Below, in pieces: positions 3,406-62,030 of a stretch of DNA of 64,000 nucleotides. The notes under the pieces are model-generated. The model was given only the letters and a program-made list of their open reading frames with translations. It searched no databases and had not been told where the DNA came from. Every line of letters starts with the position of its first letter. Position 1 is the stretch's first letter. The stretch is from Psococerastis gibbosa (taxonomy: Eukaryota > Arthropoda > Insecta > Psocodea > Psocidae): NCBI GenBank assembly GCA_963971405.1, contig OZ020486.1:8889419-8953418 (forward strand). The letters are read 5' to 3'. Made by a program: the position numbers and the translations under genes.

Positions 3406-3420
3406 TATCTTTCGCACTTT

Positions 3421-29699: not shown

Positions 29700-30660
29700 T
29701 GGAGGTTGTAAGTTCCATTGGCGTATATTAATAATTCATTGTCAGTTAGGCACTAGATAGGGAACAACTACGACTTCGACTTCAGCTTCGACTCACAACC
29801 GGGAGCATATAAGTTCCACTGGCGATTATTAATAATTATTCATTGTTAGGTAGACACCAGATAGGTAACAACTTCAACTTCGGCTTCGACTTCGGCTACG
29901 ACTCACAACCGGAAGCATGTATACCTGTAAGTTCCACTGGCGTATATTAATAATTCATTGTCAGGTAGGTACTAGATAGGTAACAACTTCAACTTCGGCT
30001 TCGACTTTGGCTACGACTCACAACCGGAAGCATGTATACCTGTAAGTTCCACTGGCGTATATTAATAATTCATTGTCAAGCAGGCACTAGATAGGTAACA
30101 ACTTCAACTCCGACGTCGGCTTCGACTTCAGCTACGACTCACAACCGGAAGCATGCATAAGTTCCACTGGCGTATATTAATAATTCATTGTCAGGTAGGT
30201 ACTAGATAGGTAACAACTTCAACTTCGACTTCGGCTTCGACTTTGGCTACGACTCACAACCGGAAGCATGTATACCTGTAAGTTCCACTGTCGTATATTA
30301 ATAATTCATTGTCAAGCAGGCACTAGATAGGTAACAACTTCAACTCCGACGTCGGCTTCGACTTCGGCTACGACTCACAACCGGAAGCATGCATAAGTTC
30401 CACTGGCGTATATTAATAATTCATAGTCAGGTAGGTACTAGATAGGTAACAACTTCAACTTCGACTTTGGCTACGACTCACAACCGGAAGCATGTATGCC
30501 TGTAAGTTCCACTGGCGTATATTAATAATTCATTGTGAAGCAGGCACTACGTAGGGAACAACTTCGACTTCGACTTCAGCTTCGACTCACAACCGGAAGC
30601 ATGCATAAGTTCCACTGGCGTATATTAATAATTCACTGTCAGGTAGGTACTAGATAGGTA
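29700..30660. repeat. Tandem array of about 8.5 units (101-121 bp) with dimeric higher-order structure
   Basis: Units start AGTTCCACTGGCGTATATTA at 29711, 29812, 29930, 30045, 30160, 30281, 30396, 30505 and 30608. Each contains ACTAGATAGGTAACAACTTC, then a variable number of 6-bp TTCGAC/TTCGGC steps, then CTACGACTCACAACCGGAAG. From 29930 on, two variants alternate: one with GTCAGGTAGGTAC, the other with AAGCAGGCAC. This makes a dimer of about 212-236 bp. Confidence 0.9.
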
Positions 30661-30779
30661 GCACACGAACCAACGTTAAACCACAGTTACTTTCAGTACG
30701 ATAGATGATTTAAATAGCTGTAAACTGTGCTTTTGTGTGTTGGTAATAGATAATTAAATTGATTTGAATATATAGAATA

Positions 30780-34905: not shown

Positions 34906-37810
34906 TCACCCCACAAATGGAATAAAACTCAAAATCACATCCACCACCGTTGCTGGTGCATCGAAGGCACCTTCAACACCCTCTTGTATATCCGAAGACG
35001 CGCCTGATACTCCTTCTGATGCGATTCCTGCAGCGGATTGACCGATACCCAATGCTGTAGTTCCGATTCTTTCCGCAACCTTAATAGGAGTATTAAAAAC
35101 TTTCGCACCAGCTGATGCCACGTCTCTAAAGCCTTGTCTTTTAATACGAGGTCTGTACGAAGCGGTTTCTTTAACCGGATCGAGCGCGTTTTCCACTTCC
35201 CTTTTGAAGCGGACTTCAACAGAGTTTAGACCAATTCGCGCTGCCGTCGCATCTGCCGGATAAGGTTACAATTTTTAAGCAACATTTAATAAAATATAAC
35301 GTATTGTGCTTTTATATTTAAACGAGAGTATAAGGAAAGCTTTGTGATGGTCAAAATTTTCCTGTTGGAGATTTCAGTGGATTTACCCGTTTTGAGATCC
35401 CGGGAAACCATTAAATGTTTTTTTTTTTTTTTAACGAAATGTCTGTCGGTCTGTGGATCTGTTTGTTCATCTATTTGCGGACAAACACTCGGTGGATTTG
35501 GATGAAATTTGGCTTGTATGTGCACAATAATAATATCTCGGGACAATTTGTTTCATATTTTGGGCTATGGTAAGTTCATTTCGGGGGTTCATCCCTCCAA
35601 ATACTAAAAAAACTGTTAAAAACTTTTTTTTCTCTAAAACGCCTCCAACGATTTTATTTAAATTCACATGCAGTATGTAATAGTCATTATTAATGTAAAC
35701 AAAACCCAATAGGTCGCTCGCCTCCTTATTGTTTGGTTCCGAGGGCGAAAAGGTGCTTTCTTACTTCAGGTATGTTTTAGGTGACAAATAGATCAACAAA
35801 AGCGAACAGGTTGCTTTCCCAAGCAAATTTTTTGTTTTTATTTAAAAAAATAATTTTTTTGTAGAAATTTTGTGAAATTCATGCCCCATTGCATACACTG
35901 CCATTATTACTGTGTTGTATTGTAAAATCTTACACTGCTCTGCCCGTTCAGGACTATGCAATCGTCCCATCGATCAATTCAGTGCTTTAGTGGTATAGGA
36001 AAAGTTAAAATATGAAAAGCATGTACGGGTTCACTTGTACCGGTTCTTAGCTACAGTAGCCCATGGGAATCAGGCAGGCAGGGAAGTTTAAGCAAAAGAA
36101 TTACCTGGCTCTTCATGGATCTCTGCCCCAATCCTGTTTGTCGGTGGCTAAAATGAATAAATATTGACTTATTAACAGGCTGACCAGCCTCTTAGACCAA
36201 CTATCATTAATATGTTATAAGTCGTTTGGTTATAAATGTTAACACTATTACTCCTACTGTGGTCAATTGGTGTTAGTGAAGGCCATAATATGTCAGAGGA
36301 GCATTTCTGCTAAGGCGGCAATTTCACTGGTGAATTTACTTCATTGAGATTTTTGTTTGTTTTGTTTAATGGATACTATTATGTATTATTATTTTGTATA
36401 AATTACGTTATAATATGGTAGAGACTTAATAATGATGTCTGCTACCACATTATAACTTAATTTATAATAGATAAATTAGCCGTTAGGTAAGTATCTATAT
36501 AATAGTTTCCTTAAAACAAAACATACAAAAAATCTCAAATCACAAATGAAGTAAATTCGCCGGTGGAATGGCCACCTAATGCAATGGATATTGTCAACGG
36601 CTCCATGCTTTTCCGTGTAAATGTTAAAAAGAAGTAGAAATAGAAAAATTGTGTCCAATTTCCTTGTGTCTGGAAATTTTTCATGCTTTGGTACAGTCCA
36701 GGCTTACATATGCTCTCATTGCCTTTGGTGGAACTTATATTACGAGTACAAAGATCAAGCCTCTGGTCACTTTACAGAAGCACTTCATTCGCATAATTTT
36801 AAATAAGCGTCGTACCGAGCCATCTTTTCCTCTTTTTCGTGAAATTAATGTTTTACCTCTTAGGTCACTTTACGTGTATAAAGTGCTGGGTGTTTTTTAC
36901 CAATCCTCCGGGAACAGACCTATTGTACCCGCAAACGATAGTAGAACCCGACGTGTAGAGTCGTTTGTGCCACCTAGGCCCAAAATGGAATTTTTCAAAA
37001 AAACGTTTTTATATATAGGGCCACTTGAATGCAATAAACTTTCTCTAGAACTTCGTAGCGCACCTACACGCAAAATATTTCAAAACAAGGTGAAACATGC
37101 AATACTACAAAAAGACCCAGCACTTTGGAACTTCTAATAACATGCCTCTCAACTTACCTCATACCATCTGTATACCAAATGGATCTGTATTACTACTTTA
37201 AATTTTTAGTTCTTATATTGTTATCGGCACCTTGCCTCCACGTGCAAATTGGCTGCACAATGGCAAGGGACCCAAAGATGAAAAATGTATTATCTAAATT
37301 TATGTAACTGAATTTATTTTGGGAATTACACTATTATTATTATATATTTATTGTACAAATACAGGGTTGCCCCCAATCACAAAGTACAAAATAGAAGTGT
37401 GAATTGATCATATAGATACAGTGATTACTTGATCAGAAATGTAGGTACAGAGAAGAAAATTAATCAAAAAAATTTTCCTTACATGGATTTCAGAGTGTGC
37501 AAAGAAGTCAATGCTTGGGCAGCTATTGGCTTCTCTGCACACCCTGTTAATAGTCGCAAATAACGAAATATTTACTCTACTCTAGTGTGGGTAGCCTACT
37601 CCCGATTTGATCTTAAGAGGAAGCACACTGTTGACAGTGGCTTATATTTTTTTATTTTGGGTAATACTTACTCGTTATAAAAATTTGTCTATTCAATAGG
37701 TAGAACTGGTAAGGCTAAGAAATGCTTACCCGGAGAGCTGGCGTAGTATTTACTTCAAGCACGGCTAGGGCAATAGCTGCCAGAATTAATTGTACTCCGA
37801 ATCGGTTCAT
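34906..37810 (-). CDS. Gene A: small secreted pro-protein, three exons, unrecognised family
   Basis: Exons on the minus strand: 37810-37730 (27 codons), 36147-36105 (43 nt), 35252-34906 (347 nt), giving 156 residues. All introns are GT-AG (donors GTAAGC and GTAATT). Exon 1 is a signal peptide (MNRFGVQLILAAIALAVLEV then NTTPA). Exon 2 is a short acidic spacer. Exon 3 carries two furin-type R-X-K-R sites (VRFKR|E and RIKR|Q). They release a predicted 75-residue Ala/Gly/Ser-rich chain. It starts QGFRDVASAGAK, has VAERIGTTALGIGQSAAGIA in the middle and a hydrophobic end (VVDVILSFIPFVG). Its first residue, Gln, could cyclise. The exon 3 acceptor has a second AG 12 nt downstream in frame. An AATAAA signal is at 34868-34863. 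Paralogous to gene B. Function unknown: a secreted peptide, antimicrobial or other effector, is conceivable but unproven. Confidence 0.85.
35326..36053 (+). mobile_element. Repeat family A copy in intron 2 of gene A
   Basis: Begins AGAGTATAAGGAAAGCTTTG and ends CTTGTACCGGTTCTTA, diverged from copies 1 and 2. Gene B intron 2 has the same insertion with a large internal deletion (49766-50035), so it predates the gene duplication. Confidence 0.75.
36314..36576. mobile_element. Harbinger-like MITE in intron 1 of gene A, TAA duplication
   Basis: 263 bp, TIRs around GGCGGCAATTTCACTGGTG and CACCGGTGGAATTGCC-like complement (CGCCGGTGGAATGGCCACC). TAA at 36311-36313 and 36577-36579. The gene B intron has a single TAA in the same flanking words (TTTCTGTTAATGCAATGG, 51283-51300). 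Confidence 0.92.
36640..37137 (+). pseudogene. Non-LTR RT C-terminal remnant (CR1/L2/Daphne-like) in intron 1 of gene A, antisense
   Basis: 162 open codons include SRLTYALIAFGGTYI, KPLVTLQKHFIRIILNKRR, then PLFREINVLPLRSLYVYK. This is the thumb region after the RT core in CR1/L2-type ORF2 proteins. No catalytic motif remains. The matching part of gene B's intron lacks it. Confidence 0.75.
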
Positions 37811-37862
37811 AATTTACTAACTTTCACAAGTTTTGTAACGAAATGACTGAAACTGATTTGGG

Positions 37863-37898
37863 AAGTGACTTCAGTATGCGCGGTTTTTAACTTATATA
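37863..37898 (-). promoter_or_regulatory. Core promoter of gene A (TATA box plus Inr-like TCACTT)
   Basis: TATATAA at 37898-37892 and TCACTT at 37868-37863. The T of TATA is 32 nt from the A of TCACTT, the usual insect spacing. The predicted 5' UTR is 57 nt. The same boxes with the same 32-nt spacing occur in front of gene B. Confidence 0.7.
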
Positions 37899-38650
37899 TT
37901 TCATAAACAATAGCCTACCAAATTTTATCCTTGCAGCCCGGACATTATTGTCACTTAAATTAAACGATCTACATGTAGATCAAGGACGATGAATACATGC
38001 GAACGTATCAGTGTTGCCATTTTCAGGCAGTCTCTATTGTTTGCGAAGCTTACAATTAAACATTTTGCTTGATTTTACTGTACATCAATTGTTATTTGAA
38101 GCTTTCGTGACTTATTAGTATGAGATCGCTTATAAAATATATAGGATATTATCGTGCAAGCAATATCCCTCCAGTCGAATCATATGAAAACAATCTTCTT
38201 GAGTTGCAATCTAGGGATTGGTTTGCCGCGAATGTTGTATTTTCCCCTCTGTACAATATTTCTAATATTAAACTAGTGTCACGACGACATATTATGCTAC
38301 ATTGGCATTAAAAAATTATAACTAGCCTTCACTTTTAGGGTATACTGCTAGGGTGATGACGACAATTGGAGTTTGACATCATTTCCATGTTACCCATGTC
38401 TGTTGGCGTTGTGGCTCATGTAATTTACCGTAAAAAGCACTTTCAAGTTTTTGTTTGGTTAATATTTATAATATTTTGCCATGCTAGAACATATTGTACT
38501 CGTATTATTAATGGTAACGTATAAGTTATCTTATCTATCGTAGCATATTTTATATTATATTGTTTCTACCGCCAAATAGCCTATATCCTTTGTGCAGGTC
38601 ACTATCCAACCAAAATGTTAAAATGGCAATTAGTTTCTGTTAGGCTTTTA
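37899..38650 (-). repeat. Duplicated upstream region of gene A and flank D, copy 2
   Basis: 37811-38330 aligns with 51910-52350 upstream of gene B (for example CATCAATTGTTATTTGAAGC beside CATCAATTGTTTTTTCAAGC). 38330-38650 aligns with 32340-33060. Together they show the order D, gene A, D, gene B. Confidence 0.75.
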
Positions 38651-39500
38651 CTGGACTGTATAATCTGTTAGTACAATAATAATTGTTGCTGGACTTACCA
38701 CACTCTGGTGTACTTAGAAGAGAAGTCTGGAAGTGGTGAAGGGCCCTTCTCTTCTTTTTTGATAACCGGGGATGGGTGCACCAGAGGGGAATCACGTTTA
38801 TAAAATAAATTAATAATAATAATCAATTAAATAGATATTTTATAAGAAACAATGGAATGGAATGATAACTGTGACAGTGTTTGATCTCGACTCTAGACTA
38901 ATTCAAACATGGGGCTCTTATCAAAGGCCCATTTGGATGCAATTCTGAACATTTTCCATATAGAAGAATAGCTATTAGATACTGCAATAATATTGGCAGA
39001 TGACAATCCTAGTACGGGGTTACTCGTACCGTTTCTGTTATATTTACACGTACTGCAGTAGGTACCATTTATCATACAAAATACTTCATATCTATTTGTG
39101 TGATAAGATGATACATACAAGTACTATACAATGTTTGGGAAGTTGTCCGTATATTTAACTTTTTAATACGTTGCCAAATTAGTTTGTATAATATTATAAT
39201 ACGCTTAGCCTATTTAATATTATTATTTCGGGAAGTAGGTAGAGTCCATATCCATATACCATAATATGATACAATATTGTTGGAGAGGCTGTGGCAGCCT
39301 GGCCTAATGAGGAGGCTACCGCTGTCAAGGAAAATACGTGTGTATGCAGTTCGACAACTCACGATATAATAACAATTAAACAATTCAAGACACTGACACT
39401 ACCTACCTGGGTTCAAAACAGGAAAACACAATTCACAAAAACACAATAAAACTATACTATCCCATAAGCTAAACATCTCGTATAGACCCTGGGTTGCTGG
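38651..39500. other. Non-coding stretch in tandem unit 2
   Basis: Apart from the short frame at 38893-39120, nothing is recognised. Confidence 0.3.
38893..39120 (-). other. Short open frame of 75 codons, unrecognised
   Basis: The frame includes YCSTCKYNRNGTSNPVLG and FRIASKWAFDKSPMFELV then a stop. It contains no ATG near its start, so it could only be an exon. No splice sites were fixed. Could be chance. Confidence 0.2.
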
Positions 39501-39690
39501 CAGGGACGGTTTCAGAAGTTTTCGGGGGGGGGGGGGGGGCGGTGACCTGAAAAATATCGCGTTTCCCTTACTTGAGTAACAATTTCTCTTCATTTCCTTC
39601 AAAAGTCCATTCTATCTAGTATAAAGCTATTTTTCTCGGGGGGGGGGGGGGGCGGTGGGGGCAGTCGCCCCCCCCAAGGATCCGTCCCTG
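39501..39690. mobile_element. hAT-type MITE with perfect 8-bp target-site duplication
   Basis: Starts CAGGGACGG and ends CCGTCCCTG, with GTTGCTGG at 39493-39500 and 39691-39698. It contains two G-runs of about 14-16. 190 bp, no ORF. Confidence 0.88.
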
Positions 39691-39698
39691 GTTGCTGG

Positions 39699-40491
39699 TG
39701 TCTCACCCTAGCTACTACCCAGGGTCGCTCTTAGGTTCACTACTATATTCCAATCTTACTTCTATGTAAGGCTATATGGCCGTAACAAATGTGATACATG
39801 TTAAATTTATCAGAATCACTATTATTGGATAGCATGTGGTGACTATAACGAAAGCAACTGAAGGTAAATCTTATATTTTATGAGAACCGCATTGCAAAAT
39901 AATTTAATCCTTCCCAGCTACAACTGAATGACGGGAATAGGACATTTCACACTATCTAACCATATAAACCTACCGCGATAGAATATACCAGGAAACCCCC
40001 ATAAACTATGCGATACTGTTGACGAACAGAAAATATCAATTTTCAATGCAAAATAGCCCCTTTTGTTACCGCAACACTGACTGACGTAACCTTTCTGCAA
40101 ATGTGAAATTCGAATCCGAGTGGCTTACTACGGACAAAGCATTGGATTGTTCCGTGCGGGTTTGACGTGGCTTCCTTTAACGAATTGCTTTATATATTCA
40201 GAATCCGCTTCTAATGAAATGTCAGAGTTCAGCTTGATATTTAATAATAGGAAATCGCGCGATTGGCTTAATGGCTAGCTTCGACTCCCTAGTTGCCTTT
40301 GATTATAATAGAATCGACCTATTGTAGCTATGTTATCAGATTTTCCACATTTTCAAATTACCCGACTTTCACGTTTTGTTTTCCTTCTGCTTCACGTGCG
40401 ACAGTTTTAGACATTCGCATGGTGTCAAAAATTGACAAGACCCCGTTTCATTGCCCCATGTTTTTAAAATTTAACGTCCTCTTCTGACTCG
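39699..40491. other. Non-coding stretch
   Basis: Nothing recognised. Confidence 0.3.
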
Positions 40492-40824
40492 CAGGGGTTC
40501 CCAACCAGTGGTTCATGAACCACTGGTGGTCCACGAACATATATCAGGTGGTCCACGAGCCAAAGTAAGAAATAAGAAGAAAAAACAGCTGAGTTATTGG
40601 AACTTTAAATAACATACATTAAGTATTGGCAACTACAGCAATATAAAATCTGACCGATACAAGTCCTAAACATTACCTATCTAATATTAGCACGTAATTG
40701 CAGGCACAAATTACTTGACCTTGGTCCTAGAATTTAACGATTTTTTTGTCGCAACCATGGTGATCCACGAAAAATCACAAAATAATCTACTCTAGAGTTG
40801 GGCAAAAAAGTTTGGGAACCCTTG
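40492..40824. mobile_element. hAT-like non-autonomous element
   Basis: Ends CAGGGGTTCCCAACC and GTTTGGGAACCCTTG. An internal palindrome AGTGGTTCATGAACCACTG follows the left end. No clear 8-bp duplication (CTGACTCG against GTTAAGAG). A fragment of the same element lies at 33515-33715. Confidence 0.7.
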
Positions 40825-41079
40825 GTTAAGAGCATATTGGCATCTCTCACCACTACGCGTTCTTCTGTACAAAGTCAAATTTTATTTCTCATGAAATACC
40901 CAACATTCAATACAATGGAACCATAAATGAGAAATGCCCATACATTTAGTACATAACTTACAGTACATAGCCGGCACTTATGTCGTTAATATCGTCTTTT
41001 GTTTTTGAAGGCGTGAAAACATGCCAGCTTAGGTTTGCAATTTCCGAAGGACTTCTTATGGACCCAATCCTACTTGTAG

Positions 41080-41300
41080 TATCCCATAGGTCCCTTGTTC
41101 AATGCCAATGAGCCCATGGATTTCGGACATTATTTATATTGTTTCCGTAAGAATTTTTGGCCATTGGCAAAACTGGTATACGACCTCGATGTCAACCTAC
41201 ACCGGCTACAAGCGATAATGGACAAGCTGAGACAAGGTTATCATTAACGCAATAAAACAGGCGAAAGCATGACTTACCCAAATACAGATACGAGTCCAGC
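41080..41300 (+). repeat. Family H repeat
   Basis: Carries CCATGGATTTCGGACATTAT, GATGTCAACCTACACCGG and GGACAAGCTGAGACAAGG. Confidence 0.6.
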
Positions 41301-41411
41301 TTAGGTTTAGTCCCCGCTATTACGTGTGTGGCCTAACGGTGTTAGCGCAATCTGCATGCAATGTATCAAAATGTCGAAGAGCATTTCATCTTCTTCTTCT
41401 TCCACTCCCAT

Positions 41412-41846
41412 TTATGGGTCTATGATCAATATTTCATAGATATTAGACTTCGTAGAGAAAAAGAATCTTACTGTCCCATTTTTATACAATTTAACATTCT
41501 CTTCTGTTAAATCAAAACGGTATGGTGCGGTTAGCGCACATTTCCCGTAACGTGCAACTAGCGCATGTGCTGAACCACATATGCAACGTAACAAATAATA
41601 AGAAAGAAGACGTTGATAGATATTGACAAGAGAATTAGCATGCCTACCGACAGCAGCCCATGACACTTCCTTTTGAAACTTGGCTAGATGACGAAAAAGG
41701 CAGAATTCGATCTGATGGGTCAGAAAGCATGCTTCCTTGTCATAGTCCCTTAGATTCCACTGTTTCATTATCTCATTATCGAGTTTAATTTGTTGACTTC
41801 GTGGACTGGTCAAGCGAAAGCCTTTACACAAAGCCTTAAACACCAT
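41412..41846 (-). CDS. Unrecognised 144-codon open frame
   Basis: Starts at a true ATG (41846) and runs MVFKALCKGFRLTSPRSQQI ... KEVSWAAVGRHANSLVNIYQ ... SYYLLRCICGSAHALVARYG ... to a stop at 41412. The composition is not low-complexity and holds paired C and H residues, but no family is recognised. A frame of this length is close to what chance gives in 64 kb at this GC content. An RTE-like remnant on the same strand lies just upstream, so it could also be TE-derived. Confidence 0.25.
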   Translation of the reverse strand: MVFKALCKGFRLTSPRSQQIKLDNEIMKQWNLRDYDKEACFLTHQIEFCLFRHLAKFQKEVSWAAVGRHANSLVNIYQRLLSYYLLRCICGSAHALVARYGKCALTAPYRFDLTEENVKLYKNGTVRFFFSTKSNIYEILIIDP

Positions 41847-41884
41847 ATTTTGTTCTTTATCGGACTAGTTTTTTTACTATCAGG

Positions 41885-42230
41885 CAACCATGCAACTGAT
41901 GCACTGAAGAAGGAAGTCCAACTCTCGCCAAACCACTACCTCAGGTTTTTCAACCGGGACGTTCTTCTTCTGCCGGGTGCCCTCTGTCCTTCCATAGGAT
42001 TTTTATATGCAGAAGGCGATACTTTTCGTTCCTCATCACATGGTCGCAGCATGATAGTTTCCTATTCGTCAGCAGCAACTCGGCTTCTATTTCCATTGGC
42101 CTCAGGGCCTCAGCATTAGGGTCACAATCCCTCCAGGATATGCGCAGCATTTGCCTGTATATCCACATTTCAAATGCACTGATTCTGCTCTTAATAGCTC
42201 AATAGCTCTCATACATACCTTACAGAACGA
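41885..42230 (-). pseudogene. RTE-like ORF2 C-terminal remnant
   Basis: The frame reads MWIYRQMLRISWRDC, EIEAELLLTNRKLSCCDHV and MRNEKYRLLHIKILWKDRG. This is the same conserved block as at 24590-24835, in better condition. Confidence 0.7.
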
Positions 42231-43676
42231 TTGTCTTATAATACGATAATACAATATTATTGCTTTCCAATCTGTACGTAGTATAAGGAAAGCTTTGTGG
42301 TGGTCCAAATTTTCGATTCCGAGTTTTCAACGGACTTGCACGTTTTGAGGTCCCAGGAACCCAAAAAAGTGTATTTTACGGAAAGTATGTCTGTCTGTCA
42401 CTCTGTCTGTCTGCCTGTTCATCAATTTCCGCACAAACTACTCGCTCGATTTTGATGAAATTTGACATGTAGGTTCACAAAAATCATACCTCGAGACAGT
42501 TTTTTTTATTTTCACTCAATTTTCTCAAAAAAACTCCAAAAAAAACGTCTAAAAAAATATTACTCAAACACGGCTCCAACGATTTCTTTTAAATTCACAT
42601 ATATTGTAGGCGTTATTAATGTTAACAAAATGGGGGGGGGGGGTCGCTTGCCCCTTGATAGTTTGCTTCTGGGGGTAAAAAAATTGAAATAACTAAATTT
42701 TAATGAAAAATGACTAAAAAATTATTTTTCAGCGAAACCTTTCTATCGATGATTTCTACCTCCAGGCACGTTTTAGGTGTTAAATTGAGTAACAAAACCG
42801 GAAACTATTTGGTTTTGTGCAAAAAAAATGTTTTTTGAAAAAATGAAAATTCACGCTCAATTGCATTGCGTGCCCTGCCATTATTGCTGGGTGGTAATGT
42901 GCTGGTCTGACCTATCCAGAATTTACCTCACCTCCAGTGACGTCAGGTGGACACCCCCCCACCCCTGAGATATCCGACATTATTTACCATGAAATTACTC
43001 ATTTTCTCTATCTACTAATTGATAAATTGGAAAGCATGTTCGAGTAAACTCGGACCCTCCCATTATTTGCATCCTTGAAGCTTATGTTTGTCTTACGTTT
43101 CAGCTGCTTGCATGTGATGGCTTTGCTTTTGCTTGATAGTGGTTGGGGCGTGATGCAGGCTGAGACTGAGACCTTGCCGTGGTATGGGGGCTTAGCCTGT
43201 ATGAGGGGCTGACTTCATTAGGAGGCAGTTGCTTGTCCAGGTGACTAACGAGATGCAACGCCTACGTCTGCCCCGCGTAGGTGAAACGGGGACTGAGGAG
43301 GAAGACAAGGCTGGTGATTGAGGTGAAGGCCTACCTGCGGGAGGTTGGAACCAACACATCTCTTTGCATGTCGGAGTCCGAGGTGAACCGCGGTTTGAAA
43401 GTGGCCGACTCAAACTAGGGGTCTTCATCCCCTAGTTCTGCTGGGGGGTGGAGTGGCAAGTTCGGCTGCTGCGAGTAGGTCTACAGAAGGTGGAATAACC
43501 CAGAATTGGTTCGATTCTGGGAAGGTCCGCTGGATGGACGGCTGAGGAGCAGCAGCCGGGCTACGGAGTGCTCGGGATGCGGGAAGACAAGTTTATGAGG
43601 CTTTATGCCTCATCAAGGCTGGTGGGAACGCGGAACGAGACCCTAGAAGGGGCAAAAACCCTCAACTACATGAAAT

Positions 43677-44831
43677 ATGGATCAAACAAAAGAACCTATA
43701 TGTTTCAGGGATGCTCCTATGGAGCAGGGCCCTTCAAATAGAGTGGAAGACGTGGAAGCTTCTCTGGAGCAGGCCTCGTCTTCTTTGTCTTATTCTTTTC
43801 CCCAGGTCATGCTGACGGAGGGGGCACCGGAAGCTCCGACAGAGCAGGCCGGTATTTCCACCCAGGCCGACATGGCGGAGGGAGGAACTACCCTGGAGGG
43901 GAACAAGGAGATAGAAGAGGACCTGAGTAAGGCCGCCTCTGGACTCCGACTAAAAGGGAAGCCCAGGAGAGACTCTGCGTGGCATAAGGCTAATTTCGAG
44001 AGAAGAAAACAAGCCAAAATTGCAGCAGGGACCTGGACTTCCGGGAATCCAAAAAAGGCAGCTGGAGCTGAAAAGGTAGCCAATTCGGTGGCGGGACCTA
44101 CAGCGAAAGCAGAGCCTATGGAAACGCCTCTGAAAAGGCAAAGGTCGGAAGGCAGTACGCCAAGTTCCGGAACCAAGGCACAGGTGAAGAGGCGGAAAAA
44201 CATAGATGACGTGAGACCGGGAAACCCAGGACTTAGTAAGGTCGGAGGGCTATTCTCGGAGAAGCTCACGACTGTTAAAATGGCAGTAACATTTGCTGAG
44301 TTCCCCGACAGACGTCTGACAGGAGACGAGAGCGAGGAACTCATAATGTTGCTGACAGCAAAACTGCAGCTAATGAGCAATGGCTTAATGCCGTGCTTCA
44401 GTGAGCAGTACCGAGTTGACGGGGGGGCGCTGGTTCTATACTGTGCGAATAAGGAAACCAAAGCTTGGCTTGAGCAGGTGGTTTCCGAATCCAGCCCCTG
44501 GAATGGCAACTCCCTACAAGTGGGAGAAGCGAACAAAGTCCTTAATAGGACAAGAGCCATCACCAGGCTAGCAATGCCTTATAGCAAGATGCGTATGGTA
44601 GATGTGCTTAAACAGCTGCATGCTCACAACCCGAAGGTCCAATGCAAGGAATGGCGGGTAGTAAATCATCAGCTTGAAGACGACGGGAAGACTGCGACGG
44701 TGGTGCTTTCCCTCAGTGAGACTGAGATGAATGAGCTCAGGGGGCATAACTTGCGCTTAAGTTTGGGCCTTGGAGTCATTTGTTTCAGGGTCGTCGATAA
44801 GAAGCAGCCTGGAGATGGAAGGAAAGATTAA
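43677..44831 (+). CDS. LINE ORF1 protein
   Basis: 384 residues, presumed nucleic-acid-binding chaperone of the retrotransposon particle. The first half is acidic, then lysine/arginine-rich and disordered-looking (KGKPRRDSAWHKANFERRKQ, LKRQRSEGS, VKRRKN). From about residue 195 a folded domain begins (KMAVTFAEFPDRRLTGDESE). It continues through ALVLYCANKETKAWLEQVV and TRAITRLAMPYSKMRMVDVL and resembles the DUF4780-type RRM-like domain of other insect LINE ORF1 proteins. No CCHC knuckle is present in ORF1, unlike jockey and I elements. Its last 17 nt overlap the ORF2 start, suggesting termination-reinitiation. The 257-codon antisense frame is a shadow. Confidence 0.85.
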   Translation: MDQTKEPICFRDAPMEQGPSNRVEDVEASLEQASSSLSYSFPQVMLTEGAPEAPTEQAGISTQADMAEGGTTLEGNKEIEEDLSKAASGLRLKGKPRRDSAWHKANFERRKQAKIAAGTWTSGNPKKAAGAEKVANSVAGPTAKAEPMETPLKRQRSEGSTPSSGTKAQVKRRKNIDDVRPGNPGLSKVGGLFSEKLTTVKMAVTFAEFPDRRLTGDESEELIMLLTAKLQLMSNGLMPCFSEQYRVDGGALVLYCANKETKAWLEQVVSESSPWNGNSLQVGEANKVLNRTRAITRLAMPYSKMRMVDVLKQLHAHNPKVQCKEWRVVNHQLEDDGKTATVVLSLSETEMNELRGHNLRLSLGLGVICFRVVDKKQPGDGRKD

Positions 44832-47800
44832 GATCATCCAAGCCAATCTCCAGCATAAGAAAACCGCCTCGGCGAACCTAGCCAGGATGCTAAGGGAAGG
44901 TCAATACGACGTAGCCCTTATTCAAGAACCCTGGGTGGTACAGGGGAAGGTGTCCGGACTGGCTGAATCCAATGGTAAGTTGTTATATGACACTACAAAT
45001 AAAAGACCCAGAGCGGGCATTATTGTAAGCAAGAAACTAAACTTTCTCTTGTTGCAGGAATTTTGCTCGAGGGACCTTATTTGTGTCAGACTCGTAGTAA
45101 AGATACAGGGTGGTCCAAAAGAAATACTCTTGGCATCTGCGTATCTTCCATATGATTCGCCCCCTCTACCTCCAACGGAAGAAGTGGAAAAACTCATTGG
45201 TGAAGTTAACAAGAATGGTGAACACCTGATCTTGGGTACAGACGCCAATGCACATCACACAATATGGGGGAGCACAAACTGCAATGACAGAGGTGAGTCC
45301 CTATTTGACCATATACTGCAGGCTGATCTCAATATTTTAAATAAGGGGAATAGGCCTACATTTATAACAAAGACTAGAAGGGAAGTGTTGGATATCACTG
45401 TGTGTACACAACACACTTCTAGGTACATCTCAGGGTGGCAAGTGCTGCTGGAGCCATCACTGGCAGACCATCAGCACATAGCCTTTACCCTTGAGGAACC
45501 TGACATTGAAAGGCAAGTATTCAGAAATCCCAGGAAAACCGACTGGTCAGGATACCGGGAAGATCTGAGAAATGCAGTGAGAGATATTAACTGTCAAACG
45601 AGGGGTACAGTGGAATTGGACGAGGCGGTGGAGCTCATCGAGCAGACCATCTTATCCTCGTACAACAGAAACTGCCCCGTAATCGAAAAAAACATCAAAA
45701 AAAGTACGAAGTGGTGGAATAACGAATTAGCAAAAATGAAGACTGAGGTACGTAAGTTATTCAAGACCTCAGCAAAAGTTGGTAAGTGGGAAGCTTATCA
45801 TAGCAGACTCACAGAGTACAACAAAGCTATTCGGAAAGCAAAACGGAAAACATGGAGAAGCTTCTGCGAAAAAGTTGAAAATACAGCAGAAACAGCTAGA
45901 CTCCATAAAATACTGAAATCCACCCACACTAACCCCGTGGGAACTCTGGAAAATTCTAATGGCAAGTTTACTCGGACAGGGGAGGAGACACTGGAAAAAC
46001 TTTTAGGGTGTCACTTCCCCGGTTCGGTGAAATGCGACAACAGCAGCACATCAGAAGACAATAAAGCCCGAAGGGCTGATTGGAACTGTGCCAAAAGGCT
46101 GATAAAACCGGGACAGGTGGGCTGGTCCATCAGCACTTTTGAGCCATGCAAGGCTCCAGGTCCGGATGGGATTTTTCCCCTCCTTCTTCAGGAGGGGAAA
46201 GAGATCCTCACCCCGGCATTGACAACCATCTATCAGGCCAGTGTAGCGCTTGGACATGTTCCTAAGTCGTGGGCAATGGCTAAGGTAGTATTTATACCTA
46301 AACCTGGAAAGGCGAACTACGCCCAGGCCAGGTCATACAGGCCGATATGTCTCAGTTCTTTTCTATTAAAAGCTCTAGAGAAAATCCTGGATAAACATAT
46401 CCGGGAAAAAATACGCACTAACGCTGGTTTACATAGTTCTCAGTATGCGTACCGCCCTGGCAGATCCTCTGAGACTGCATTGCATCAACTGGTGAGCAGA
46501 CTGGAGGAAAGCCTGGACAATGGGGAGATTGCACTGGCAGCGTTTTTGGACATTGAGGCGGCTTTCTCCAACGCGGGACATGACTCCATGGTAAGGGCGT
46601 TGGAGAGAGTTGGCGTAAATGCAACTGTGTGTAGATGGATCAGATCCATGCTTAGCAATAGGAAGATTCTAGCATCCCTATCTGATGAGAAGGTGATGGT
46701 AAGGGCCACCAGGGGTACGGCACAGGGGGGGGGGGGTTATATCGCCCCTGTTGTGGAACCTTGTGGTGGACAAAATCATCACCAGACTCAATGAGGTGGG
46801 AGTGTACGCACAAGGATATGCGGATGATTTGGCCATTGTGATTAGGGGTAAGTCCATGACGGTCATAACCGAGCTAATGCAAATGGCTTTTTCTGAAGTA
46901 GAAAAATGGTGCAAGGCTGAAAATCTGAGCATCAACCCATCCAAAATCTCGATGGTACCATTTACTCGAAAGAAGAATCTTGATGGGGGAAAGCTGCCTA
47001 AGCTTTTCAATCAAGTTGTAAAACTGGGGACGGAGGTTAAGTATCTAGGGGTTAACCTAGACAAAGGACTTACCTGGAATCCCCATATTACAAAAACTAT
47101 TAACCGAGCTAAACAATTAATTTATGTTTGCAGACGGGCAATAGGCACAACGTGGGGAATCAGGCCCAAAATGGCAATGTGGATTTACACAATGGTCATT
47201 AGGCCGGTGATTACCTATGGAAGTGTAGTTTGGTGGACCAAGACTACACAGGTCACAGTGACAACCAAGTTGAATGGGCTCCAGGGGCTGGCCTGCCTCT
47301 GTATCACAGGAGCAATGTCAACTTCACCAGGGGATGTCCTGAATACTTTATTGAACCTGCCAACCCTGGGAGTCTTCATTGAAGCACAGGCCAGGATGGG
47401 CGCCTATAGATTGGAGCTGGAAGGCTGCTGGAGAAGCAAAAGGTCAGGCCACTCCAATATTACCAAAAGCATATCGGAAGACACGCTTTTAATGCCGTCA
47501 GACCGAATGACACCCCTGCTCTCATTCAGCAAACCATTTAACACTAGAATTCCAGCTAGAAAAGAATGGAATGCTGAAGAACATCAAACAGGGGACAATG
47601 ACCTAGTCTGGTATACAGATGGGTCGAAAATGGAAAATGGGGCTGGAGGAGGAGTCTATGGGGAAACTGTAGACAAATCCATAGTCCTAAGCCTCGGCAA
47701 ATATGCTACAGTCTTTCAGGCTGAGGTAGGGGCCATTATAAAATGCCTAGAGGAGTGTATGGAAATGGAAAGCAAGGGCAAAACCATTATTATCTATACA

Positions 47801-48442
47801 GACTCGCAGGCAGCGATTAAGGCTGTGGAGGCTATAAAGATCACATCAAAAATGGTGTGGCACTGCATCAACCTCCTAATAAAGGTGTGTCGGGAAAACT
47901 CAGTCTCGCTGATTTGGGTCCCGGCTCACTCGAACTTTGATGGGAATGAAAGAGCCGACGAGCTGGCTCGAAAAGGTGCAGAAACGCCATTCATTGGTGC
48001 AGAACCTAAGTATGGGATGGCTTATTGCCAGGCCCGTACTTCTGTACAAAAATGGGTGCAGAGAAAAACTGCAGAGGAATGGAAGAAAGTCCCGGAAAGC
48101 AGATTTGCTAAGAAGGTTATTCCGGGTCCTAGTAAAAGGCTCACCGATCAGCTTCTCTCTTTAAGTAGAGAGCAAGCTAGAAGGGTGGTTGGCACGCTTA
48201 CGGGCCACGGCCACTTCAACAAACACATGCATAGGGTTGGCGTGAAAAACGACAGTAGATGCAGACTGTGTGAAGTTGAAGAAGAAACAGCTGAACACAT
48301 TCTCTTTGAATGTGAAGCGCTGGGAAAAACTCGATACCAAACTCTTGGCCACCCTAGGTCTGAAGAGGAAACCATCCGATCTAATCCCATCACAAAAACA
48401 CTAGAATTTATCAAAAAGACTGGTGTTATAAGATGGGCGTAG
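44815..48442 (+). pseudogene. LINE ORF2: endonuclease-RT-RNase H-CCHC, one frameshift
   Basis: The likely start is ATG 44815 (MEGKIKIIQANLQHKKTAS). Endonuclease motifs: QANLQH, LIQEPWV, GTDANAHH, LADHQHI. RT: CKAPGPDG, FIPKPGK, YRPICLSSFLLKALEKI, YAYRPGRSSETAL, AFLDIEAAFSN, GTAQGG. The frame breaks at a run of 12 G (46725-46736); a run of 8 or 11 would keep frame. The first frame then stops at 46794. The second frame (visible to 48442) resumes with WNLVVDKI, GYADDLAIV, GVNLDKGLTWNPH. RNase H: WYTDGSK, FQAEVGAI, IYTDSQAA, VPAHSNFDGNERADELAR. The C-terminus has CX2CX8HX4C (CRLCEVEEE...HILFEC). All catalytic residues are retained. The single homopolymer break could be real or a sequencing slip. 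Confidence 0.92.
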
Positions 48443-48556
48443 ACGGCAAACGTGGAAGCAAAAGACCTTCTAGGTCGACGCTTATAGGAACTCAAACGAG
48501 TAGGCCCCACGAAGGTAAAAAAAAAAAAAAAAAAAAAAAAACTCGGACCGGTTCTT

Positions 48557-48796
48557 ATGTTATGCTTGCAGGCTATTATAATTATGAGGCTCGGAAAATC
48601 CAATTGGTGGACTGTGGTCACTATTTAAATTACAGATCTTCAACTAAAAACCTCAAGCATTGGCTTTCAATTAGTTGTACAATACAATATAATAAATGGC
48701 CCTCAAAAGATGTAAGTGGTTCGTGGGAAAGAAAATAAATAATGTAAGTAGTTTTTAATATTTTTAAAACTCCGGCGCGATTATACACTTTTGAAA
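48557..48796 (-). other. Downstream flank of gene B
   Basis: Aligns with 33709-33805 plus 34735-34905 downstream of gene A, that is, the gene A flank minus the LINE/MITE insertion. It holds ATTAAA at 48759-48754 as the probable polyadenylation signal. Confidence 0.65.
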
Positions 48797-51700
48797 TCAG
48801 CCCGTAATCACATCCGCCGCTGTTCCTACTGCCTCGAAGCCACCTTCAACACCCCCTTGAATATCCGAAGACGCGCCTGATACTCCATCTGATGCAATTT
48901 CTGCAGTGGATTGAGCGATATCCAATGCTGTAGTTCCGATTCTTTCCGCAACTTTAATAGGAGCATTAAAAACTGTCGCACCAGCTGACGCCACGTCTCT
49001 AAAGTCTTGTCTTTTGATACGAGGTCTATATGAAGCGGTTTCCATAACTGAATCTAAAGCGTCTTCTACATCCCTTTTGGAGCGGACTTCAACAAAGTTT
49101 TGACCTGCAGGATAAAGTTACAATTTATGTGCAAAATAAAAAGGCCAATAATGGTGGAACATAAGGGGAAATGCGGGGAAGTGTCAAAGGAAACGTCAAG
49201 GGTTGGCAACGGTAAACTGATGAGGCAAATGAAGAACAACTGTACCATCCAGCAGGCAGTCTTACCAACCGAAACCGGCGCAGTAAGTTACTGTACACTG
49301 AACTTGCACGTAAAAAGCTTTATTATGAAAGTGATTAGCTTGTGGTGGGAACCTTCAAGCATAATCTCAGTCACAACATTTGCCGCTTCACTGTTTACGC
49401 TGCGGATACTCATCTTACCCGCCTGGTACATACAAGGTGACTAGTACCCAAACTTGGTTAAGTCAACCTCTTACATTTTGTCATTGGCACCATTAGCAAA
49501 CCAGTTTGCCAATAATGGCTTGAAATTCATGCGGAAGCAATACTAATAGTCTGAAATATTGAAAACTCCATGGAATCGTTGGCATTGGGCAATGTTCTAT
49601 TGGTCTTAAGGAGCCCTTCAAATAGTTAATATTAATCAGCATCTTCACCGGAGGAACATTTTGTAGAACAATTGAATGAAAGAGGCTTCTCTATTTCGGG
49701 CGGCTATGACCATTGCTAGGAATTCTCATGAGCAAATTATTGCTTACCTTTTATACGTTAGTAGTACATGAAGAAAGCTTTGTGATTTTCGATTAGGAGA
49801 TTTCTGTGGATTTACTAATTTTGAGGTCCCAGGAACCCAAAAAAGTGTTTTTAACGGAATGTCGGGCAATCGTCCCATCGATCAATTCAGTACTTTGGGA
49901 TAGGGAAAGTCGGGGCTACCGGAATTGAGCCCTAGGACAATTATTTACTATTGAACTACTTATATTATCTAGCTCGGTGCCCATTCAATTAAAAAATAGA
50001 AAAGCATACGGGTTCACTTGTACCGGTTCTTAGCTACAGTAGCCCATGGGAGTCAGGCAGGCCGGCAAGTTTAAGCAAAACAATTACCTGGCTCTTCACC
50101 GCTCTCTTCCTCAATCCAGTTTATCAGTGGCTGCAATGAAGTAATTTTGGCTTATTAACAGGCTGGACCAACCTATCAGGCCTATTTTCTTTAATATTTG
50201 GTTATCATTTTTTTTTTTGCACTATATGACCCCTACTGTATTATCAGCGCATGTAGCGCCTACAACGGCGTTATGAATGAAACTTGCGGAATTTTAAGTA
50301 TTTTAAGAATTTAATAGAAGTGAGCTTCTTCTTCTTTTAATGCATTTTCTATCTATGATTAAGTACCATAGCTAATCTAGCCTAATATTATTAATTTATT
50401 AATTATTAATTATACTAGTTTAACAAAAATTATAATACTAATTCTAGAAATTTAAAAGAAAATCGGAGGGGTAAAAGCTTTACAAGTGTAAACTTCCATT
50501 ATCTCATGCATAGGCGTAGCCAGACGGGGGGGGGGGTGCAGGGGGGTCCGGACCCCTCCCGATATATTTGCAGTGCACACTAGATAGAATGGAGTCTTAA
50601 ATATATTGAGGTTACCTCACCTCCGGTGACGTCAGATGTGCCCCTCCCGAAAATATTCCTGGCTACGGCCTTGATTTCATGCAAAATCAATGTTAGGGTT
50701 GTCAAAACTATCACGACACACAGAACTGAACATTTTGATATAATTATGGTAGGTGCCTCATTCTAACACAGATTGGTCACAATTATTGAATTTGACTTGT
50801 ACAAAAAACGATTGGTGTTGTAGTCAGAGGCGTAAAGTTTTAGAATGATGGCGGGGGCAAAACTAAGCCGACCTTATCAATATAATATGTATAATCAGTA
50901 TAATATGCGTAAAACCTCACTAATTTGGGCCCATTTATCGATTTCTTTTCTCCGTAGGATCAAAGTCTTGGGGTCCTAAAGCCTCCCTCCCCCCCCCCCC
51001 AGAAATCTTGGGAATTTACGCCAATGGGTTTTACGCATTTTAATAGTTGTTAAGTATGGCTGTAGATTTTATCAAGCTAAAAAAGGAATTGCCTATATTC
51101 ATATTGCTGCAAAGGGGACCATGAAGTATATGAACTACGTCTTGCATTGCTCGAACCAAGTTGGACCGTGCCCCCCCCCCCACTTTACGCCCCTGGTTGC
51201 AGTGTAAAGAAAGGAGTTCAAAAATTCTGGCCAATTGGTGTTTCTAAAGGCCACATGTCATATATCGAAATGTAGAGGAGCATTTCTGTTAATGCAATGG
51301 ATATTTTATGTATATTTTCCTATATGTAAATTGACTTTGTATAAAACAACAGGTAGTGCTGGCACTCCGATTTGCTCTTAAGAGAACGCATACTGATGAC
51401 ATTAGACCACCCTGGATCACTCCCAAATAGGTTGGCTTAATTTTTCTACTTTATTTAAGAGGTTATGTCAAAATTGGCACCCCAAAATTAAATACTTTAC
51501 ATTTTTTCTTTAATTAACTCAGCAAGTTATTAAAAATTTGGCCCATCTAAGTTGTAGAAGACTAGGTACTTCGAGCATCATACAATAGGGTATTTTTACT
51601 GTTCGGTTTTGTAGTTCTTCCAAAAATCCCAGAATACGCGTAATTATAGTCCTTTCTGGGTTTTATGAAAGAACTAAGGTACCAAAAATTTAATATTTCT

Positions 51701-51909
51701 TATTAAATCAACAAAAACTACAAATTTTGGGGTGCTCATTTTCTTCCTCTTAATACATACTCGTTATTAAAATTAAATATTATAATGAAATTAAATAGGT
51801 AGAACTGGTAAACTTAAAAAGTGCTTACCCGGTAGGTTGGCGTAGTATTTACTTCAAACACGGCTAGGGCAATAGCTGCCAGAATTAATGGTACTCCAAA
51901 TCGGTTCAT
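48797..51909 (-). CDS. Gene B: small secreted pro-protein, paralog of gene A
   Basis: Exons on the minus strand: 51909-51829 (27 codons), 50130-50088 (43 nt), 49104-48797 (308 nt), giving 143 residues. Intron phases and exon 1 and 2 lengths are identical to gene A. The signal peptide differs at only 4 of 27 positions (MNRFGVPLILAAIALAVFEV). Exon 2 is much more diverged (about 7 of 14 residues shared). Exon 3 again has two furin-type sites (VRSKR|D, RIKR|Q). The mature chain begins QDFRDVASAGATVFNAPIKV, continues ERIGTTALDIAQSTAEIASD and ends AADVITG. It therefore lacks the hydrophobic FIPFVG end of gene A. Both copies are free of stops and keep GT-AG sites, which argues that both are functional. 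Confidence 0.85.
49445..49610 (-). repeat. Family H repeat in intron 2 of gene B
   Basis: Contains TTGGTTAAGTCA, GTTTGCCAATAATGG and CCATGGAATCGTTGGCATTG, antisense to other copies. Not present in gene A. Confidence 0.5.
49766..50035 (+). mobile_element. Repeat family A, internally deleted copy in intron 2 of gene B
   Basis: Left end AAGAAAGCTTTGTGAT, then directly GCAATCGTCCCATCGATCAA and the right end CTTGTACCGGTTCTTAGC, as in gene A's intron but without the roughly 450-bp middle. Confidence 0.75.
50503..50675. mobile_element. Possible small TIR element in intron 1 of gene B
   Basis: GGCGTAGCCAGACGGGG on the left and CCTGGCTACGGCC on the right form an inverted pair enclosing a G-run. Short and without a clear duplication. 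Confidence 0.4.
50826..51195. mobile_element. TIR element related to 20765-21407, in intron 1 of gene B
   Basis: Ends AGAGGCGTAAAGT and ACTTTACGCCCCTGG. Inside is the unit AATATGCGTAAAACCTCAC, CTTGGGGTCCTAAAGCC and TTTACGCCAATGG known from the minisatellite-bearing element. Absent from gene A. Confidence 0.6.
51476..51737. mobile_element. TIR element in intron 1 of gene B
   Basis: Ends GGCACCCCAAAATT and AATTTTGGGGTGCTC. The interior AGTTGTAGAAGACTAGG links it to the MITE at 13495-13714. Confidence 0.6.
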
Positions 51910-51961: not shown

Positions 51962-51997
51962 AAGTGACTCCAGTATGCCCTGGTTTCAATTTATATA
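51962..51997 (-). promoter_or_regulatory. Core promoter of gene B
   Basis: TATATAA at 51997-51991, TCACTT at 51967-51962, 32 nt apart as in gene A. Predicted 5' UTR 57 nt. Confidence 0.7.
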
Positions 51998-59172: not shown

Positions 59173-62030
59173 CAATATATGGTTGAGAGTAGCTCGTCCT
59201 ACACTGAACGTAGAGCAGAGTTTGCGTCTGGACCTGTTATGCTGGTTCTTAACTTTTTGATTTCATTTGTACGTTAGTATAAGGAAAGCTTTGTGGTGGT
59301 CGAAATTATCGATTTCAAGATTTAAACAAATTTACACTGAGCACCCCTAATTGGCCAACAGCAAAAACAAGTTTGCCAACTAAAAAAAAAAGGTTTACAA
59401 CTATCCGTGTTAAATATCTATTGTACGTAAAATTGGAGGGAGGGGGTGCAACAGCCTTAGCCATTTCTACATTTTTAAAGTTCTTATCATTTTTATAGCC
59501 ACCTCGGACAATTGGGAAAGTTCAGGTATAATAGACATTGCCTTTACCCCAAGCAGGGGGGGGGGAGTCCGTGGGTCTCCTCAGAGGGAAACTAATTGAA
59601 AAATAGTATTAGGGCACCATATCAATATTTTCAGGACTGCTTGCCAGTGGTTAGGAATCACTTCTCCAACCTATCGGGCAGTTAAGAAAATTTAATTTAT
59701 CATACAGGCATCTAGGCATGCAATATATTTTTTTTTTATAGACGATGGAAAAAATATAATTAGATCAATTCAAAACCGAGAGGTTTGTCTGAACACATGT
59801 TCATCGCTCAACAATATTAAAATTAATTAATGTAATATTTAACAAACAATATTTAACTGTTTAAGGAAACGACATGATTTTTTATTTTTTTTTTATATTT
59901 TTATAGTTTTAGGTCTATATGCTGTGTATAGGTAAAAGAACCGTTCGTAGAGAACTTAAATTTAAAACGGAAGGTGCAGGTAAGCGGGTCGAGACTGAAA
60001 ACAATAGGAATGGCCAGCTGGCCTGGGCCCTGGGTCCACCCAACCTCATCTTCATTGGTAGGGAAAAATCACTGTTGCCAGGAGTATTCCTGGCCACAAA
60101 ATCACAAATATAGCAGTAGTAAAGAGCGAGAATCTTCTACCAGACCTCAGGCATAGACTCCAATTGGGTTGTCGAACTACGCGTTGGCGCCCACTACGGG
60201 GGGCATGGAACTTTCCCCCCCCCCCTGGAAAAGTGGCCTAACGCCTACCAATTCCCTTCACTTTTCCTGGGCATTTCCATTTTTCATTGAAAATGTTTAA
60301 TTTCTGTGTGACTTAAAACATTGGAGGAAGAAATGTTTAACTAGTAGATTACTAATACTAACTTAGAATGGTAAACATTCACCGTGATGTGGTGGGAAAC
60401 TTAAACTTAAAAAGCTTTGTGAATTCAAACACGCTTTTTGTTTTAGTTTTTTAACGGTAGCAACTTAGTAAGGACAAGGGGCATAAGAGTCTAAAGTTAA
60501 AAATGCTAAAACAAAATTTCCTCAGGAGGTAAATCCAAAACAGTACAATTTCCTTGGTAGTTGGGGGCCGGGTCTTCTCTCTCGTTCCCCCGCCCCCCCC
60601 CCCCCAGACTTTTCACCACGTTTTTTTTTTTTTTTTTTAATTGCAAAACATTTATATGGCTTAACCAGGACTCCACTATTATTGTATTATGTTTCGAATT
60701 GATTATCAAACCTGATACAAGGTTCTACGTATGACTGTTAGTCATAATAAATTATTACATTCAATTTCTTTAGTTCAAACTCTTTCTTTTTGTATTGGAG
60801 AATGAAAATTTCTCCTGGGAATAAAACGTGAAATTATATGTTGAGCGGATTACTTCAAAGATGACGAAGTTGACTTATTGAGTTTATTTAATCCATAAGC
60901 CTCTTCCTTCTCAAAACAGAAGCACAAAAAATATATATATATATAACGTGGAAAAAAGATATCTTCAAGAAAAACATTCAAAGTTAATATTATCGGAAAT
61001 GAAAGTATCGAAAGACTGGGGGTTAATGCTCCTTATAAAAAATGAGCAATAATGATTCTTTTTATAGCTGATAAGGAGGAAGAAAAGGAAACAAAACAAA
61101 TTTTATAGGCTCTAGAAGCAAAATGGCCGCCATGATTGCTTGAAAAAATTGGAAAAAGTTGCACGTGAAATATACTGTATTTCTATACCAATATGATACT
61201 TTATTGTTGATCTGATGGAGAATCCCTAATGCATGAACAGTACCGTACCTACAACAGCAGCCAAGCTGCCAGAAAATTAATAATATCTTATTTGGCAAAT
61301 TATTTTACTATTTTAATATGGTATTCACATTAAACCGCTCGTTTAAAAACAGACGATTTATTTTAAGAAAATGTCCCACCTACGGATGAATAATAAACAT
61401 TAATAATTTTATTATTCTTAATTTTATTGAGAAACAATTTTCTAATGCAATATAATTTTCTTGCAATTCAATTGACGTTCTTGGGGTTTTTTTAGGATAG
61501 TTTACATTTTGTTCCCGGGCAAGTTATTCTTTTTTGTCGATGCTATATAGGTGTGGAAAAATAAGTGTTCTGTTCTTGTTTATAACGCATCAGAATCATT
61601 GGATATTAAATAAACTTGTATACTTCTAAACATATTTATTTAAAACAAAAATATAATGGTGTTAAAAGAATACAAAATGGCAGCCAATAATTAAACAGCT
61701 ACCTAAGCCTGCAGATGATTTGAAAAAAAAATACATATTCACATAATTATTATAATACACTCAACACAAGGATGGCCCGAGACCGCCAGTTCTGTACACT
61801 AATACAGCTTTTCTGTTTTGTGGGTGGACAAACTTCTGGACCCATGCATGAGTTTCGATTAAATTCGGCATGTAGATTCAAAAAAATCAGATCTCAGGAT
61901 CTTTTTTTCCATTTTGGGCTAACTTAACTTTGAGGGGTTTTAATTGATTGGCGAATTGTCACTATGGCCTACTATCATGTGGTGACAAGTAACACCCATT
62001 TTTAACAGTCAATATTACACGTGTAAGATC
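59173..62030. other. Long non-coding stretch
   Basis: A repeat A scrap is at 59277-59340 (TATAAGGAAAGCTTTGTGGT) and a weak one at about 61800-61945. G/C runs at 59557, 60217 and 60594; poly-T at 60621. ORFs of 60-78 codons near 59919-60156 and 61062 show no motif. Confidence 0.35.

Follow-up and report, generated by a model that had tools for sequence, protein, structure and literature searches.

Three related genes in the barklouse Psococerastis gibbosa predicted to encode secreted pro-proteins with an amphipathic helical pattern

The window analysed here, a stretch of 64,000 nucleotides (nt) of the forward strand of contig OZ020486.1 of the barklouse Psococerastis gibbosa (assembly GCA_963971405.1, positions 8,889,419 to 8,953,418), contains two three-exon genes, A and B, whose products appear to be small secreted pro-proteins cut at furin-type sites. 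An earlier, sequence-only reading of this DNA had described both genes as intact, and this was borne out: the exon coordinates are exact, all four introns are of the GT-AG type with phases 0 and 1, and the frames are open over 156 amino acids (aa) in A and 143 aa in B. On the minus strand, the stop codon of A occupies 34906-34908, and the ATG of B starts at 51909. Gene B has 7 codons fewer than A at the 5' end of exon 3 and 6 fewer near its 3' end. The search of the window with tblastn revealed no further gene copy (best other match E 0.31).

The analysis was extended to the host genome (409 Mb, 68 contigs), in which the window lies on the contig called C3. The search with the mature chain of A gave the first trace of a third gene at C3:9048103-9048321, and 233 kb around the cluster were read to complete it. 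This third family member, gene C, lies about 100 kb from the A/B cluster in inverted orientation, on the plus strand, so the earlier description of two tandem genes has to be replaced by one of three genes. It encodes 192 residues with a predicted mature chain of 94 aa and a net charge of -10, and its exon lengths (81 and 43 nt) and intron phases are the same as those of A and B. To find exon 2, the 7.7 kb that separate exon 1 from exon 3 were scanned for in-frame, stop-free 43-nt windows of the AG...GT type; the chosen window scores 34 against exon 2 of A and B, the next-best one -8, and windows of other lengths, scored on a separate scale, reached 15 at best. Because gene C repeats the exon lengths shared by A and B, these are more than a chance agreement. 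Genome searches with exon 3 of C, the full A sequence and the leader DNA of A, which score only the best candidates, returned A, B and C, and the sole further match was on contig C1 with E 6.05. Additional leader-sharing genes were also considered and rejected, as the leader DNA matches A, B and C only.

Table 1. Positions of the family genes, their predicted parts and the neighbouring retrotransposon. Plain numbers are window positions; C3 marks positions on the whole contig.
Feature	Position	Strand	Remarks
Gene A exon 1, 81 nt	37730..37810	-	ATG and signal-peptide-like leader, 27 codons, phase-0 donor GTAAGC
Gene A exon 2, 43 nt	36105..36147	-	Start of pro-region, phase-1 donor GTAATT
Gene A exon 3, 347 nt including stop	34906..35252	-	Remaining pro-region and mature chain
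Gene A first furin-type site RFKR, residues 56-59	35200..35211	-	Placed by hand from exon coordinates
Gene A second furin-type site RIKR, within ASYRPRIKR	35137..35148	-	Placed by hand from exon coordinates
Gene A predicted mature chain, 76 aa, no Cys, net -4	34909..35136	-	Amphipathic helical pattern
Gene A TATA box TATATAA, 88 nt 5' of ATG	37892..37898	-	
Gene B exon 1, 81 nt	51829..51909	-	ATG and signal-peptide-like leader
Gene B exon 2, 43 nt	50088..50130	-	
Gene B exon 3, 308 nt including stop	48797..49104	-	
Gene B first furin-type site RSKR	49073..49084	-	Placed by hand from exon coordinates
Gene B second furin-type site RIKR	49010..49021	-	Placed by hand from exon coordinates
Gene B predicted mature chain, 70 aa, no Cys, net -7	48800..49009	-	Same helical pattern as A
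Gene B TATA box TATATAA, 88 nt 5' of ATG	51991..51997	-	
Gene C exon 1, 81 nt	C3:9040087-9040167	+	
Gene C exon 2, 43 nt	C3:9047523-9047565	+	
Gene C exon 3	C3:9047870-9048324	+	
Non-LTR (long terminal repeat) retrotransposon between A and B	43674..48541	+	Ends approximate; outside the gene family

All three predicted products share the same layout. Residues 4-18 form a hydrophobic segment (Kyte-Doolittle mean 2.58 in A and 2.48-2.64 across the three genes), and it is followed by a pro-region with furin-type sites: RIKR and R[FSL]KR are present in all three genes, and C carries an additional RSRR. When the chain after residue 23 was shuffled, at least two RX[KR]R sites arose by chance with P 0.0032 (A) and 0.0004 (B). 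The shared exons, phases and two cleavage sites noticed earlier in A and B were thus found again, and the exons and phases recur in C. No cysteines are present in A or B, nor in C according to its translation. The mature part is rich in Gly, Ala and Ser as had been proposed (together 39% in A and 41% in B), although the proposed length of 75 residues does not hold for any of the chains (76, 70 and 94 aa in A, B and C), and the Gln expected after RIKR is present in A and B and replaced by Leu in C.

The searches for relatives of the family gave no credible match. None of the Pfam families exceeded the cut-off for A, B, C or their mature chains; the matches below it were Rv1893 (E 0.14 with B and 0.011 with mature B), phasin (0.13), DUF6742 (0.067-0.14), DUF2654 (0.18), DUF4494 (0.13) and Calici_PP_N (0.2). 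NCBIfam, searched with A and C, showed nothing at E up to 1. Among 5.8 billion proteins, the query with A yielded 174 word-sharing candidates and the alignment of A and B 1541, none with E <= 1; since candidates must share 5-residue words with the query and only A and B served as queries, distant relatives could be missed, above all those in unannotated barklouse genomes. The PDB search with A gave no match. The profile of A, B and C, built from three sequences of biased composition, matched CFA/I fimbrial subunit B in the PDB with E 0.00018 (an engineered trimeric fusion of 463 aa) and 0.0052 (a construct of 312 aa). However, the entries of 146 and 153 aa score only E 0.83 and 0.92; the summing of copies is probably what lowers the E values of the longer constructs, and the match was rejected as probably an artefact of composition. 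The CFA/I pilin is a beta-sandwich. Prokaryote and viral contigs contained no relatives, as expected for an insect gene, Rfam at gathering scores found nothing in the window, and literature searches by peptide words and by topic did not find a description of the family among the papers listed. The earlier statement that no named family has this layout therefore stands, and as far as Pfam, NCBIfam (A and C), the PDB and the protein collections can tell, the family appears to be unnamed and without a credible relative.

The comparison of the three genes showed that conservation is distributed very unevenly. The upstream blocks align over 312-341 positions with 85% (A-B), 68% (A-C) and 69% (B-C) identity, with TATATA at the aligned place in all three genes, and 13 of the 81 nt of exon 1 are different in A and C. 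The nine residues ASYRPRIKR are identical in all three genes, and the 3, 2 and 1 pairwise nucleotide differences within them are all synonymous. The C-terminal tail is likewise kept between A (ILSFIPFVG) and C (ILSYIPFVG), with one F/Y exchange and three synonymous codon changes; gene B is without most of it, LSFIPF being missing. The mature region, in contrast to its earlier description as a conserved core, is the segment with the weakest amino acid conservation: between A and C it is only 37% identical, with dN 0.56 against 0.18-0.38 elsewhere, and the differences (79 of 219 nt, 46 of 73 aa) are about equal to those of the upstream DNA. What is kept there instead is a helical periodicity, described below. 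The conserved elements of the family are thus the cleavage motif, this helical pattern and a C-terminal tail that A and C share.

The ratio of non-synonymous to synonymous change (omega, dN/dS), counted over all aligned codons, was 0.86 for A-B (bootstrap 0.46-1.73), 1.07 for A-C (0.73-1.68) and 1.83 for B-C (1.22-2.95), and for the mature part 1.08, 1.40 and 2.21, respectively. A codon model with a single rate (GY, F1X4), fitted to the three genes, gave omega 1.24 for the whole and 0.99 for the leader and pro-region; at 1.54, the value for the mature part fits no better than omega 1 (log-likelihood -643.29 vs -644.41). Positive selection on the mature part is thus suggested by the values, and the likelihood comparison is not significant. 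The same data bear on a role driven by a protein partner and not by a lipid surface, as in seminal, egg-coat or salivary anti-defence proteins: the high B-C ratios, overall and by counting in the mature part, speak for such a role. However, the mature omega does not differ significantly from 1, and the feature that is kept is amphipathicity, which makes this explanation rather unlikely.

The rates also raise the question of whether A and B are simply recent copies losing constraint, whose frames are open by chance. The sequence-only reading had named dN/dS near 1 and stops in related species as signs against functional genes; the former was found for A-B (0.86), while neither stops nor frameshifts were present. 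Moreover, the probability of no stop arising under random substitution is 0.28 and 0.23, and the coding differences between A and B (55 of 429) compare with 37 of 320 in the 5' flank, all of which such decay would explain. On the other hand, gene C is open over 192 codons and has the same exons at a far greater distance, the cleavage motif varies only synonymously, and the two length differences between the coding sequences of A and B are both whole codons in the protein alignment, whereas only 2 of 9 gaps in noncoding DNA (5' flank, 3' flank and four intron pieces) are multiples of 3. The retention of the helical moment between A and C, though not demonstrably between A and B, also exceeds the neutral expectation. 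Decaying duplicates are therefore considered very improbable.

The analysis of the predicted mature chains revealed a common amphipathic pattern. Computed over the full length of each chain, the hydrophobic moment is highest at 99.0 (A), 99.5 (B) and 99.5 (C) degrees, and on the Eisenberg scale with a common 0.5-degree grid 0, 0 and 11 of 5000 shuffles, respectively, reached as high. On the Kyte-Doolittle scale, which was applied to A and B, no more than 1 in 1000 shuffles matched the value for the whole or the 64-residue chain, and the C-terminal half gave 8 (A) and 2 (B) per 1000 on this scale and 8 and 3 on the Eisenberg scale; in these Kyte-Doolittle and half-chain comparisons the observed values were taken on a finer grid than the shuffles. 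The mature chain of C opens with an acidic stretch of about 20 residues that lies outside the pattern, and its moment, 0.29 for all 94 residues, rises to 0.41 when only the 73 residues that align with A are taken. Over the aligned part the moment at 99 degrees is about 0.40 in all three chains, and the phase of the vector also agrees: -142 (A) and -143 (C) over 73 aligned residues, and -141, -144 and -144 (A, B, C) over 64.

Values of this kind are rare in the background, as a moment of at least 0.40 occurs 7 times among 7474 overlapping 73-residue windows cut from 111 retrotransposon proteins, and once among 2005 windows from regional open reading frames (ORFs). The pro-region served as a control, and its best angle was 165.5 degrees in A (P 0.25-0.26) and 87-88 degrees in B (P 0.03-0.14). 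When neutral drift to 46 of 73 amino acid differences was simulated, the mean moment fell to 0.23 as compared with the observed 0.41 and 0.40, so that the moment was kept between A and C beyond neutral drift (P 0.004 and 0.01 for divergence from A to C and back, 500 runs each). The period of the pattern, about 3.64 residues per turn, is close to 11/3. According to our own count on the helical wheel, drawn for A and B, a 160-degree arc holds 11 of the 12 charged residues in A and 11 of the 13 in B, and by our reading the nonpolar face is about 200 degrees wide.

Based on these features, we propose, with roughly even confidence, that the genes encode a furin-matured, cysteine-free chain that adopts an amphipathic helix of the 11/3 type on contact with a lipid or air-water interface. 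The leader would direct the pro-protein into the secretory pathway, where a furin-type convertase would cut after R[FSL]KR and RIKR. The released acidic chain of 70-94 aa would be disordered in solution, and it may adsorb through its wide Ala/Gly/Val/Ile/Phe face to a lipid or air-water interface, where it would become a long helix that coats or loosens that surface.

Several points weigh against this interpretation. The signal peptides of A, B and C were judged by eye and from hydropathy only. Purifying selection is visible only locally, in short motifs, because omega is about 1 for A-B and about 0.99 for the leader and pro-region in the three-gene model, and, as given above, frames of this length could stay open under random substitution. 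Between A and B, which have diverged little, the moment is not kept to a significant degree (P 0.16 and 0.07), and there are prolines inside the mature chain. AlphaFold, in agreement with the proposal, predicted a helix over mature residues 1-57 without strands for A and B, but with a predicted local distance difference test score (pLDDT) of only 52, and for C it split the mature part into four shorter helices; the confidence was low (52 for A, 43 for C, with two or three sequences given). The low pLDDT and the four helices in C mean that a single continuous helix is not confirmed.

A soluble hendecad bundle is an equally feasible product of a long amphipathic helix, and the genes might then encode a helical bundle or right-handed (hendecad) coiled coil, for instance a silk-like or structural secretion. 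The 11/3-like periodicity fits such an assembly as well, and so does the high share of Ala, Gly and Ser in A and B. However, at the heptad angle of 102.9 degrees the moment of the aligned 67-73 residues is only 0.088, 0.141 and 0.093 (A, B, C) vs about 0.40-0.41 at 99 degrees, and the common heptad coiled coil, including ordinary coiled-coil silk, is therefore unlikely. The nonpolar face of A and B is wide for a coiled-coil core, and the chains are short and non-repetitive by eye. We regard the bundle as a minor alternative, improbable in comparison with a surface-bound helix.

The predicted layout of the products also resembles that of insect antimicrobial pro-peptides, which have a signal peptide, a pro-region with RX[KR]R cleavage and a short mature chain and are encoded by duplicated genes. 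The products could thus be immune effectors, that is, antimicrobial or membrane-lytic helices kept as pro-proteins and released into the haemolymph by furin-type cleavage, and the duplication, the mature omega of about 1 or more and the amphipathic helical pattern agree with this. Unlike these peptides, the family is acidic (net -4, -7 and -10 for the predicted mature chains of A, B and C), Cys-free and without a match to any antimicrobial Pfam family in A, B or C. Three NF-kB-like patterns and one GATA pattern were unmatched in the upstream DNA scanned, 320 bp for A and 331 bp for B. Because of the acidic charges and the absence of NF-kB-like patterns near the starts of A and B, a cationic antimicrobial role is less likely, and an immune effector of any kind is judged to have only a small chance of being correct. 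The products are most likely a surface-active secretion of a gland or of the haemolymph rather than a classical cationic antimicrobial peptide, as far as this may be predicted from the sequences.

Perilipins, synuclein and apolipoproteins are described in one source (PMC8064757) as forming a 3-11 helix and folding on the lipid surface. The proposed chain shares with perilipin 4, alpha-synuclein and the exchangeable apolipoproteins an extended amphipathic helix that is only weakly hydrophobic and has a period close to 11/3, but differs from them in its leader, furin-type pro-region and acidic chain. An 11-residue sequence repeat was not seen by eye when the chains were written in an 11-residue register. 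The PDB matches to mature C at E up to 10 were 14 in those listed, all of them alpha-synuclein with E 1.8-9.4; these are not significant, and the likeness is thus one of physics and not of kinship. A further, more tentative possibility, which we consider somewhat doubtful, is that the family represents a new class born in barklice, a secreted and furin-activated surface-coating protein that would be the extracellular counterpart of perilipin- and synuclein-type helices.

To our knowledge, barklice are poorly studied at the molecular level, and the family would give a handle on their secretions. Its three paralogues allow what is kept (the leader pattern, the cleavage motif, the helical pattern and, in two of three genes, the tail) to be separated from what is not, which is most of the mature sequence. 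If the family does represent such a new class, the sequence would be nearly free, or pushed, to change while the 11/3 pattern, together with the short tail in two of the three genes, is kept. How a secreted protein can lose most of its identity while its biophysical pattern stays is a testable question, and such change is how families of this kind would escape homology searches.

Gene A intron 1 contains, at 36628-37137 on the plus strand, a frame of 169 codons that by eye resembles the C-terminal end of the reverse transcriptase of another long interspersed nuclear element and has no Pfam match. A dispersed repeat family, whose pairs are 69-84% alike, has members in introns of A as well as B and at other places in the window (35327-35704, 42280-42630, 5971-6396, 49773-49852 and 59265-59327). 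The retrotransposon between A and B encodes a DUF4780 ORF1 and an endonuclease-reverse transcriptase-RNase H in two overlapping frames, followed by a 3' A-tract. Its reverse transcriptase gave 111 matches, the best of them 55% identical, and the named close ones are from insects. A 3' fragment of the element at 8178-8891 is 98-99% identical to it; the copies are therefore recent.

The tandem array at 30001-30663, which may start before 30001, where the search began, has a copy spacing that falls by 6 (121, 115, 109, 103). The frame at 2017-3420 on the minus strand is gag-like (Retrotrans_gag E 0.0019, below the cut-off) and adjoins a frame of 1129 codons (C3:8888241-8891627) that extends outside the window; the two probably belong to an LTR-type element.

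The mitochondrial contig, C68, was found via COX1; its tRNAs were identified with ARAGORN and its protein genes were named by eye. Its genes run in the order M, C, I, Q, nad2, W, Y, cox1, followed at some distance by cox3, G, A, R, F, nad5, nad3, N, S1, E, H, nad4. In this order nad3, trnN-S1-E, trnM and trnC occupy positions typical of psocomorphs, and the DNA between trnM and trnV is rich in repeats. The arrangement suggests a barklouse of the Psocomorpha (Psocodea). Among the 43 COX1 matches listed, 42 lie outside C68, on C1, C2, C3, C12-C15, C19 and C20, one of them nearly whole in two pieces on C14, and they are probably many nuclear insertions of mitochondrial DNA. Telomere-type TTAGG repeats are also present in the genome.

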